A stretch of DNA of 64,000 nt from positions 1 through 64,000 of the forward strand of contig JAFPWG010000029.1 in NCBI GenBank assembly GCA_017395045.1, read 5' to 3'. Positions 34,252-47,548 of this stretch are shown in pieces. Each line of letters begins with the position of its first letter. Position 1 is the stretch's first letter. The notes beneath the pieces are model-generated. The model saw only the letters and a program-made list of their open reading frames with translations. It searched no databases and was not told the DNA's origin. Made by a program: the position numbers and the translations under genes. The DNA is from Bacteroidales bacterium. GTDB taxonomy: Bacteria; Bacteroidota; Bacteroidia; Bacteroidales; UBA932.

Positions 34252-35403
34252 TTATACGTGTTCCACCTCGGGGTGGAGTTCTATGCCATATTTCTCCCGG
34301 ATCGTGCCGATGACCCGCCGCTCCAGCGCGACGATGTCCTCCGGCGTGGCGTCGCCCGTGGCGTTCACGATTACGAGCGGCTGCTTCGGATACACCTGCG
34401 CGCCGCCTTCGCGGGCTCCCTTGAACCCGCACTGGTCGATCATCCACGCGGCCGGCACCTTCACGCAGTCGCCCACATCATAGTGCGGCACCTGGTAATC
34501 CGGTCCGTTCTCCTCTTTTGCAATCGCCACGATCCGTCCGAAATGCTCCCTGCTGATCACCGGATTGCAGAAGAAACTCCCTGCACTCCCAATCTCCTCA
34601 GGATCAGGCAGTTTCGTCCGCCTGATCTCAATGATCGTCTCACGGATCAATGTCGGGGTTATGAAGTCTTCGAGGATAGAGGGTATAGGTCCTGAAAACC
34701 TCCGGTCGCAGAGCGACCTCCGTCCCTCCCATAAATGGGCCCCTCCCTCTAATGTGCCGAGGGTGGCACAGTTTTCAGGACCCATACCCTCTATCCTCTT
34801 CTCCAACGCCTTGCGGACGCCACCGTAGTCCAGCTTGGGCTGGGGGGCGGCGGAGAGGCGGAAGGTGACGGCCGTGATGATGTAGCGGCCTTTCCAGACA
34901 GTCTTGAAGTTCGAGGTGCGGTAGCCGTAGCCGCAGTCGGCGGCGGGGATGTCCACGAAGCGGCGCTCCCGCAGGTCGAAAGCATGGACCGTGTCGATGA
35001 TGTCCTTCGCTTCCACGCCATAGGCGCCGATGTTCTGGACGGCGCTCGCGCCCACCTCGCCGGGAATCAGCGACAGGTTCTCCGGTCCCCAGAGGCTTTC
35101 CTGCGCAGCCCAGGCGCAGAAGTCGTCAAAGACGACGCCGGCGCCCACCCGCGCCAGGACAGACTCTCCGCTGCGTTCGCAATGGCGACCGGTGTTCGTC
35201 AGATGCAAAACCGTCCCGGGGAAGTCTCCCGTGAAAAGCAGGTTCGAGCCCCCGCCCATCACGAAAAGGGGCTGCGGGAGGGCATCGAAATCCAGCGTAA
35301 GCAGGTCCTCCGGATCCGTCACCTCCACATATAAACGGCAGGACACCTTCATGCCGAAGGTGTTCCGCCGGGAAAGGTCGTATGATTCCTGCCTCGTGAC
35401 CAC
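34252..35403 (-). CDS. murB: UDP-N-acetylenolpyruvoylglucosamine reductase carrying an in-frame palindromic insertion
   Basis: FAD/NADPH-dependent reductase making UDP-MurNAc. The 383 residues have RNTFGMKV and the FAD segment VMGGGSNLLFTGDF, then LSLIPGEVGASAVQNIGAYG, YRTSNFK, KLPDPEEIGSAGSFFCNPVI with the catalytic Ser, and the C-terminal AAWMIDQCGFKG. Between VRKALEKR and TPTLIRETI the protein has about 43 extra residues encoded by a palindromic element (34672-34798); relatives are about 340 residues. The frame is intact. Start is GTG at 35403, abutting the aspS stop. Confidence 0.92.
   Translation of the reverse strand: MVTRQESYDLSRRNTFGMKVSCRLYVEVTDPEDLLTLDFDALPQPLFVMGGGSNLLFTGDFPGTVLHLTNTGRHCERSGESVLARVGAGVVFDDFCAWAAQESLWGPENLSLIPGEVGASAVQNIGAYGVEAKDIIDTVHAFDLRERRFVDIPAADCGYGYRTSNFKTVWKGRYIITAVTFRLSAAPQPKLDYGGVRKALEKRIEGMGPENCATLGTLEGGAHLWEGRRSLCDRRFSGPIPSILEDFITPTLIRETIIEIRRTKLPDPEEIGSAGSFFCNPVISREHFGRIVAIAKEENGPDYQVPHYDVGDCVKVPAAWMIDQCGFKGAREGGAQVYPKQPLVIVNATGDATPEDIVALERRVIGTIREKYGIELHPEVEHV
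34672..34798 (-). repeat. 127-bp palindromic element inserted in frame in murB
   Basis: Inverted arms of 28 bp (34672-34699 and 34771-34798) match at 27 of 28 positions. Between them lie three more perfect hairpins: GGTCGC/GCGACC (34704-34718), CCCAT/ATGGG (34728-34739) and TGTGCC/GGCACA (34753-34770). The whole could fold as a long stem with three short arms. It is translated without a stop as part of MurB. It resembles in concept the Rickettsia palindromic elements found inside genes; no second copy was seen in this window. Confidence 0.85.
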
Positions 35404-45415: not shown

Positions 45416-47548
45416 ATGAAAAGAATCCTGACCATCCTGGCGGCCCTGGGCATCGCGCTCTCCGCTTCCGCCGACGAAGGAATGTGGCTCCTGCCGCTTC
45501 TCCAGAAAATGAACGGCAAGGCCCTCAAGGAAGCGGGCTGCAAGCTCTCTCCCGAAGAAATCTACAGCATCAACCACTCCTCGCTGAAGGACAACATCAT
45601 CCATTTCGGCGGCGGCTGCACAGGCGAGATCATCTCCGCCGACGGCCTCATCGTCACGAACCACCACTGCGGCTACAGCAGCATCCAGGCGCTCTCCACC
45701 GACGAGCACAACTACCTGATGAACGGCTACTGGGCGATGACCCGTGAGCAGGAACTCCCCGCCAAGGGCCTCTCCATCACCTTCCTCCAGTCGATGACCG
45801 ACGTCACCGCCGCCCTGGAGAAGGCCGAGAAGAAGATCCGCAAGGCCGAAACCGACGAGCAGGCCATCGCGAAGAAGATGCAGGAGGAGCGCCAGGCCCT
45901 CATCGACAAAGCCGTCCAGGCCAACAAGAACTGCACGGCCCAGATCACGAGCTTCTACAACGACAACGTCTATTACCTGATCGTCTACAAGACCTACCGT
46001 GACGTCCGCTTCGTCGGCGCCCCGCCGGCATCGGTGGGCAAGTTCGGCGGCGAGACCGACAACTGGATGTGGCCCCGCCACACCGGCGACTTCTCCATGT
46101 TCCGCGTGTACGCCGGTCCCGACAACGAGCCGGCCGAATACAGCCCCGAGAACCGCCCGTACAAGGCCAAGAACCACCTGAAGATCTCCCTCAACGGCGT
46201 CCAGGAAGGCGACTATACCATGATCATGGGCTATCCGGGCCGCACCCAGCGTTTCCAGACCGCCGCCCAGCTCGAGCAGATGATCGCTTCCCAGCGCATC
46301 TCCATCGACGCCCGCACCGTCCGTCAGGACATCATGTGGGAAGCGATGTGCGCCGACCCGTCCGTCCAGCTGAAATACGCCAACAAGTACGCCGGCTCCG
46401 CCAACGGCTGGAAGAAGTGGCAGGGCGAGGAACTTGCCTTCCAGAAGCTGGACATCATCGGCCGTGAACTGGAGAAGGAGAAAGCCTTCACCGCCTGGGT
46501 GAACCAGAAGTCCCAGCGCCAGCAGGCCTACGGCAACGCCCTGAAACAGATCGAAGACGCCGTAAAGGCCTCCGCCGAGGCCGAGATGGCCGTCACCCTC
46601 CTCACCGAGGCCCCCTACCGGATCGAGCTGGTGGGCCTCGCAGGCCGTTTTACCCAGGCCGTTTCCCGCCAGGGACAGGACGCCAAGGTCCTGAATGCGC
46701 TGCAGCCGGCCTACCGCGACTATGTCGTGGACCTGGACCGCAAGGAAGCCGCCGCCCTGCTGGAGTTCTTCCGCCAGCGCGCCTCCGAAGAAGACTATCC
46801 CAAGAGCCTGGGCGTGGACTTCGACGACTTCGCCACGATGGACATCCCCGCCTATGTGGACTACCTCTTCGACGAGTCGGCCTTCACCGCCTATGACAAG
46901 GTGGCGGAACTGGTCAACGCAGGCGACTGGGAAAAGGTCTGGGCCGACCCGGCCGTGCGCCTGTTCAACGCCATCATGACGGAAGTGATGGAACGCTATC
47001 CTGCGATGCTCGCCCCCGAGGCAGACATCGATGCGGGCAGCAAGGCCTTCACTGCCGGCCTGTTGGAATGGGAGAAGGGCAAGCCGTCCTACCCGGACGC
47101 CAACTCCACGATGCGCCTTACCTACGGCCACGTGCTTCCGTATTCCCCGAAGGACGCCGTGCTGTACAAGCACTACTCCACCGTGAAGGGCGTCCTGGAG
47201 AAGGAAGACCCTACGAATCCTGAATTCATCGTTCCGGCCAAGCTCAAGAGCCTCATCGAAGCGAAGGACTTCGGCCGTTACGCCGACGCTTCCGACGGTC
47301 TCGTGCACGCCTGCTTCCTGACGAACAACGACATCACGGGCGGCAACTCCGGCTCGCCGGTCCTCAACGCCAAGGGCGAACTCATCGGCCTGGCCTTCGA
47401 CGGCAACTGGGAGTCCATGTCCTCCGACGTGATGTTCGAGCCCGACCTGCAGCGCTGCATCTGCGTGGACATCCGCTACGTCCTCTTCCTCGTGGAGAAA
47501 CTGGGCGGCGCCACCAACATTATCCAGGAACTCGATTTCGCGAAATAA
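45416..47548 (+). CDS. S46 family dipeptidyl peptidase (DPP7 type)
   Basis: Exported serine peptidase releasing N-terminal dipeptides from oligopeptides. The 710 residues have a signal peptide (MKRILTILAALGIALSASA), the His segment TNHHCGYSS (81-89) and the nucleophile GGNSGSP (Ser645). Eighteen residues after the serine, the specificity position is Gly663 (AFDGNW); in Porphyromonas gingivalis Gly here defines DPP7 (hydrophobic P1) and Arg defines DPP11 (acidic P1). So DPP7-like is inferred. The stop overlaps mrp by one base. Confidence 0.92.
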   Translation: MKRILTILAALGIALSASADEGMWLLPLLQKMNGKALKEAGCKLSPEEIYSINHSSLKDNIIHFGGGCTGEIISADGLIVTNHHCGYSSIQALSTDEHNYLMNGYWAMTREQELPAKGLSITFLQSMTDVTAALEKAEKKIRKAETDEQAIAKKMQEERQALIDKAVQANKNCTAQITSFYNDNVYYLIVYKTYRDVRFVGAPPASVGKFGGETDNWMWPRHTGDFSMFRVYAGPDNEPAEYSPENRPYKAKNHLKISLNGVQEGDYTMIMGYPGRTQRFQTAAQLEQMIASQRISIDARTVRQDIMWEAMCADPSVQLKYANKYAGSANGWKKWQGEELAFQKLDIIGRELEKEKAFTAWVNQKSQRQQAYGNALKQIEDAVKASAEAEMAVTLLTEAPYRIELVGLAGRFTQAVSRQGQDAKVLNALQPAYRDYVVDLDRKEAAALLEFFRQRASEEDYPKSLGVDFDDFATMDIPAYVDYLFDESAFTAYDKVAELVNAGDWEKVWADPAVRLFNAIMTEVMERYPAMLAPEADIDAGSKAFTAGLLEWEKGKPSYPDANSTMRLTYGHVLPYSPKDAVLYKHYSTVKGVLEKEDPTNPEFIVPAKLKSLIEAKDFGRYADASDGLVHACFLTNNDITGGNSGSPVLNAKGELIGLAFDGNWESMSSDVMFEPDLQRCICVDIRYVLFLVEKLGGATNIIQELDFAK

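Follow-up and report, generated by a model that had tools for sequence, protein, structure and literature searches.

The murB gene of the Bacteroidales bacterium analysed here (genome G000) raises the question of how an open reading frame for an essential enzyme came to carry a long palindrome, and what that palindrome is. The window, a stretch of 64,000 nucleotides, contains on its minus strand an ORF of 383 aa at 34252-35403, which matches the Pfam families MurB_C and FAD_binding_4. A 127-bp palindrome at 34672-34798 lies within it, in frame and without a stop across its whole length, as had been read from the sequence. The original prediction offered two explanations, namely a small mobile element that tolerates translation, or an RNA-level structure within an essential mRNA.

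The anatomy of the palindrome was determined with the coordinates of the inner stems taken directly from the letters of the window sequence. The structured strand, on which the pseudoknot hairpin comes first, is the minus strand and is sense to murB; the covariance model matched it at G000:C42:34688-34782 (minus). In the orientation of the element, the 5′ arm of 28 nt (34771-34798) is followed by three hairpins and closed by a 3′ arm of 28 nt (34672-34699), and the arms are complementary at 27 of 28 positions, the exception being a G.U on the structured strand. The single mismatch noticed earlier was thus confirmed, as were three perfect inner stems, of 6, 5 and 6 bp. Hairpin 1 is TGTGCC-ACCCTC-GGCACA (34753-34770), hairpin 2 is CCCAT-TT-ATGGG (34728-34739), with a loop and stem length that differ among copies, and hairpin 3 is GGTCGC-TCT-GCGACC (34704-34718), all three supported by sequence and covariation. 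Beyond these, covariation pointed to an H-type pseudoknot in which CCCTC of the first hairpin loop pairs with a downstream GAGGG (34745-34749). Across copies the order on the structured strand was 5′ arm, GTGCC-ACCCTC-GGCAC, a short linker, GAGGG, AGGGG, hairpin 2 (a variable CCC..GGG), AGGG, hairpin 3 (GTCGC..GCGAC or another sequence) and 3′ arm. The predicted RNA fold of the murB palindrome had an energy of -82.2 kcal/mol, against -51.1 ± 4.1 for shuffled sequences, none of 200 being as good, and the DNA fold gave a z of -7.5. A putative G-quadruplex (GGGAGGGG ... GGGAGGGG) may also be possible in the core. In L185, L206, L040, L221, L210 and L226 hairpin 2 was expanded, which marks a possible place for cargo. 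By eye, the short arms of L028, L034, L050, L052, L174, L179, L193 and L210 extend as a palindrome past a lone base of the 3′ arm that is left unpaired, in most cases G, possibly a conserved bulge.

The palindrome is not unique to murB. Both DNA and covariance-model searches found two copies in G000, the murB copy and one diverged copy lying between two genes that we take, from their translations, to be hutI and hutH; further matches in this genome, at E 0.045 and above, were rejected as chance. Of 101 genomes drawn from the genus, 83 matched a covariance model built from 22 copies, the richest of them with 32 scored copies (the best 44 candidates of each genome being scored), and no element was detected in the other 18, while a DNA search, in which the best 8 candidates per genome were scored, gave a match in 67 of the 101. 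The search for further copies that had been proposed thus found a second copy in G000 and many more throughout the genus. Across the order, five of 295 sampled genomes matched the model (best 15 candidates scored per genome), G000 among these. Outside the genus, G226, from another genus of the same family, carried 5 copies, G278, from a different family, carried 7, and two more genomes had one weaker match apiece; the four carriers beyond the genus are G278, G226, G128 and G308. In G278 the element was observed within a longer repeat unit (L309, L314, L316, L318, L320), and these five copies share their arms, unlike those of the window's genus.

A core pattern scan of named genomes returned at least 120 stretches. 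Among the 80 matches listed, 79 titles were Bacteroidales or Bacteroidia bacteria and one was Candidatus Coprenecus; many named ruminant or horse gut samples, and Rickettsia was absent from these 80. One core pattern had no exact match in IMG/VR viral contigs. In Rfam, window positions 34400-35100 and eight further loci gave nothing over the gathering score, the matches being sub-threshold miRNA hairpins, and a plasmid search with murB returned four records, each covering 7-8% of the query. For quantitative comparison, 218 detected copies, found by a pattern in which part of the core is constant, were reduced to 176 by dropping duplicates and copies with arms shorter than 12 nt. In the scan that supplied the named loci CCCTC/GAGGG was held constant, and alignment A4 comprised 100 chosen sources out of about 320 loci.

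Comparison of the murB site among relatives, as had been suggested, showed that the RKALE-LTP linker of MurB carries a copy in G000, G064, G069, G038, G057 and G037 and no copy in G082, G054, G077, G025 and others. What is kept among the filled sites is the DNA palindrome and not the protein residues, since both the arms and the translated residues of murB differ among G000, G038, G057 and G037. In G003, murB is 108 bp (36 codons) shorter than in G064, its flanks being 90-93% identical, and retains a 15-bp stump, GGATAGA-C-TCTATCC, that corresponds to the outer arm ends; the earlier figure of about 43 extra residues was therefore about right. The stump could be a palindromic target, and a deletion remnant seems likelier because more distant relatives are filled at this site. 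A second site is filled in G064 and L230, and G003 has the stump AGGATA-A-TATCCT there. At window position 47548 the situation is different: two genes abut in the window, with neither a copy nor arm sequence between them, and G064 has an element copy there. In G037 (L086), the MurB ORF at 1033-2436 is matched twice by the model, weakly at 1414-1521 (29 bits) and again at 1909-2024. Other translated repeats, of the CHSELVEES, CHSERSEES and tandem RHCEEQVNESP types, were observed in the same or other MurB loops (L094, L108, L093, L087, L103), so that further in-frame repeat families seem to share these loop sites.

The copies are alike inside and different at their ends. In the 176 copies the mean arm length is 25.3 bp and the mean complementarity 95%, with no mismatch in 57 of them; the consensus of the arms is weak and strongest at the five inner bases (GAAAC/GTTTC type). 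Random pairs of copies have an identity of 0.74 in the core and 0.51 in the arms, and copies within genome G098 have cores 0.96 alike with arms 0.69 alike. The arms, hairpins and pseudoknot are strongly backed by covariation. Among 107 distinct copies, 96.6% of 3230 cells were paired and 24 of 32 pairs had changes on both sides; the covariation score of 0.440 compares with 0.128 ± 0.005 after shuffling (0 of 500 as high) and at most 0.077 with slid partners. At the two variable pairs of the pseudoknot, TC/GA occurred in 202 of 219 copies, a share that is inflated because the scan patterns fix CCCTC/GAGGG as part of the core; 16 of the remaining 17 still pair, in six combinations, and L013 does not. 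A 220th match, in L229, was a hairpin 2 and was left out of this count. The murB loci L100 (G089) and L103 (G039) contain a core-like stretch with a CCCCC/GGGGG pseudoknot and no clear arms, possibly a decayed copy.

The remaining mismatches in the arms indicate which strand is under selection. At 148 sites, one per orthologous group (groups taken from 40 orthologous pairs), the structured strand carried 80 G.U against 24 A.C (p 3e-8) and 57 G.A against 5 C.U (p 3e-12), whereas 82 unrelated control inverted repeats from the same loci had 21 G.U against 18 A.C and 12 G.A against 16 C.U. The G.U excess was seen in antisense copies (24 vs 7) and also in sense copies, where the counts are small (8 vs 4). 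Since the asymmetry lies on one strand, the element's own folded single strand, as RNA or ssDNA, appears to be selected. Strand-specific C-to-T mutation could in principle supply the G.U part, but no G.A excess would be expected from it. A GC-skew test for replication-strand bias gave no significant result (54 of 94, p 0.18).

Orthologous sites show how copies are maintained in place. In 40 filled pairs the mean identity was 80% for flanks, 63% for arms and 81% for cores, some arm and core identities being lowered because the arm boundaries were set differently in the two copies (e.g. L034/L222). Where flanks exceeded 80%, cores were 0.85-1.0 identical in 14 of 16 pairs, the exceptions being L034/L222 (0.74) and L084/L086 (0.70). 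The core was inverted in 15 of the 40 pairs and in 5 of those 16, with the caveat that the pairs are non-independent and murB contributes many. Both paired and single-sided arm changes were found, the latter in L016/L184, L071/L270 and L034/L222. Template switching between inverted repeats is described, in the part of the source consulted, as homogenising arms and inverting the spacer, coding genes included (PMC8604942), and core inversion at orthologous sites is what it would produce. The resemblance extends to the matched arms, the flipped spacer and the occurrence in coding genes (PMC8604942, consulted in part). It is a mutation process and not an element, and it explains upkeep and flips but not the spread of copies or the conservation of the core. 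That such repair alone keeps the arms complementary, with no selection on the fold, is therefore very unlikely, even though paired changes and core flips are its two known products: DNA-level repair would leave symmetric mismatches, and what was observed is a strong one-strand excess of G.U and G.A that the controls lack, together with covariation in the core itself. Host function or conversion between copies, rather than selfish activity, could account for the cores being conserved in place.

The position of the copies relative to genes bears on whether the host uses the structure. Long open frames (at least 40 codons on each side) hold 78 of the 176 copies, 89 lie outside such frames and 9 could not be judged. 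Eight of ten sampled host ORFs matched Pfam families: TruB (copy L016), a radical SAM protein, a C1 peptidase, an RNB protein of the RNase R type, an FAD synthetase with flavokinase (RibF type), a family 9 glycosidase with a deacetylase domain, an aldehyde dehydrogenase with YhhN, and a 2-oxoacid dehydrogenase E2, in which the insert falls between the lipoyl and E3-binding domains; two matched none. Where a single frame was clear, the element ran antisense to the gene in 38 ORFs and sense to it in 20, another 20 being ambiguous; the antisense excess may be due to stop codons that one of the core's sense frames contains. The 55 classified intergenic copies lay between codirectional genes in 38 cases (median 4.5 nt from the end of the upstream gene), between convergent genes in 15 and between divergent genes in 2, as expected if selection removes promoter insertions.

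This placement behind upstream genes, together with the highly conserved cores of the closest orthologous pairs, would also suit a structured RNA that the host has domesticated for its own use, perhaps in mRNA 3′ ends or stability, instead of a selfish repeat. We regard this as improbable, because the orientation relative to the host gene is not kept, the core flips, and copy positions differ between species, with none detected in the 18 genus genomes mentioned above. As orientation is not kept, a role in cis in the host mRNA is unlikely as a general reason for the element, and function in the host mRNA was rejected as its general cause. Of the RNA-level structure originally proposed for an essential mRNA, what stands is that a folded strand is selected, as covariation and mismatch asymmetry indicate; that strand, however, is the element's own and keeps no fixed orientation to its host. 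The proposal of a small mobile element tolerating translation fared better, in view of the copies in G000 and the genus, the murB site that is empty but for a stump in G003, and the many copies in open frames, from which we infer movement. Positions also differ among relatives (G003 vs G064 at murB, G003 vs G064/L230 at the second site, and G000 vs G064).

How copies move was approached through their ends and through candidate enzymes. If whole units were simply copied, cores about 96% alike would not be expected to carry such different arms (G098). Copying of the arms from the target at insertion was rejected, since the arms of the five G278 copies are shared and no arm sequence is present at 47548, the single clean empty site apart from those of G003. 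A de novo insertion was not observed, and searches for Y1_Tnp, RVT_1 and IS110 found no mobilising enzyme.

Bacterial MITEs such as RUP, NEMIS, ERIC and BOX are small repeats with inverted ends and transcribed hairpins, and the element resembles them in all three respects. An ordinary MITE, that is a non-autonomous IS derivative whose terminal inverted repeats are bound by a transposase, would account for the size, the inverted ends, the dispersed copies, the arms common to the five G278 copies and some excess of short direct repeats, since repeats of at least 5 near the ends were found at 26 of 148 sites against 12.2 ± 3.1 expected, albeit at inconsistent positions, so that any target-site duplication is faint at most. 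However, MITE ends are described as conserved terminal inverted repeats of 15-30 bp (PMC3733652, consulted in part), whereas the copies of the genus have a conserved interior and ends in which only about five inner bases are kept, the reverse of a MITE. Selection moreover seems to act on one folded strand, no copy in the loci examined had a gene between its arms, and no partner IS was seen (IS110 searched), the presence of IS110 not tracking the element (16/83 carriers vs 5/18 non-carriers). An ordinary MITE is thus unlikely.

The one-strand selection would fit a REP-like sequence mobilised by a RAYT/Y1 HUH transposase, an enzyme that recognises folded ssDNA on one strand. REP sequences are hairpin repeats, possibly read as a folded single strand, and some lie inside genes (PMC3733652, consulted in part). 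Moreover, Y1_Tnp was found in 75 of 83 genus carriers against 3 of 18 non-carriers (p 1e-9, kinship ignored; G084, G087 and G100 counted as Y1-negative by elimination), whereas RVT_1 (25/83 vs 7/18) and IS110 showed no link. This association may reflect shared ancestry, because the outside carriers G278, G226, G128 and G308 had no Y1_Tnp match, and in the same screen one was present in 14 of 16 genomes in which no element was detected. None of 30 Y1 loci (the best of a longer list) had the element in about 1.5 kb of flank, and several carried unrelated hairpins of their own. The element is also a three-hairpin unit with long closing arms, not a tagged hairpin of 20-40 bp. With no copy near those 30 loci and four carriers lacking Y1_Tnp, RAYT/Y1 as mobiliser was not supported, and we hold this explanation to be quite improbable. 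Apart from the element, the genus has Y1/RAYT-like genes with flanking hairpin repeats of their own in L142, L144, L146, L155, L156 and L157, resembling REP-RAYT units; in L142 the repeat GCATGGTAGA-N-TCTACCATGC flanks the gene on both sides.

Taken together, the murB palindrome is probably a copy of a dispersed, protein-free repeat of a Bacteroidales genus, a spreading, non-autonomous mobile element whose action depends on its own folded single strand. Copies would spread when a trans-acting enzyme, of the host or of an element, recognises the folded strand as RNA or ssDNA. Once in place, template switching between the arms would keep them matched and sometimes flip the core. In-frame copies may survive because a loop in genes such as murB tolerates 36-43 extra residues, and because the element can be read through without a stop in either orientation. 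A further-reaching reading is put forward tentatively and is doubtful at present. It would make the palindrome a novel type of bacterial mobile element, whose pseudoknotted core lets a single folded strand, RNA or ssDNA, be recognised and copied, so that complementarity is all that its ends require; it would spread through essential genes as translated inserts and flip its core in place.

The closest known parallel is the Rickettsia palindromic elements, dispersed palindromes of about 150 bp that often lie in frame inside unrelated protein genes (PMC10969869, consulted in part), truB being among their hosts (PMC3733652, consulted in part). The element described here is likewise a foldable palindrome of about 100-150 bp with many dispersed copies, a share of them in open frames of unrelated genes and presumably translated, as judged from the ORFs, and truB is a host in both cases (copy L016). 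Compared by description and not by sequence, it differs in belonging to another phylum and in its fixed pseudoknotted core, free-running arms, one-strand selection and core inversion. It thus behaves like a Rickettsia palindromic element but is built differently, around a pseudoknot, and its ends are maintained by structure. No prior account of it was found in the best-ranked, mostly non-subscription papers on palindromic or interspersed repeats in Bacteroidales, MITEs, in-frame inserts and pseudoknot motifs, and two core motifs searched as literature text gave matches unrelated by title.

In-frame palindromic inserts, known to be frequent in Rickettsia, are thereby also placed in a group of gut Bacteroidales, where a genome may hold as many as 32 scored copies. 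Their arms amount to a natural experiment, consisting of many independent stems in which sequence is free, pairing is constrained and one strand is read. Through them, the spread of a small gene-free repeat, the choice between RNA and ssDNA as its working form, and the capacity of essential enzymes to absorb about 40 foreign residues become testable.
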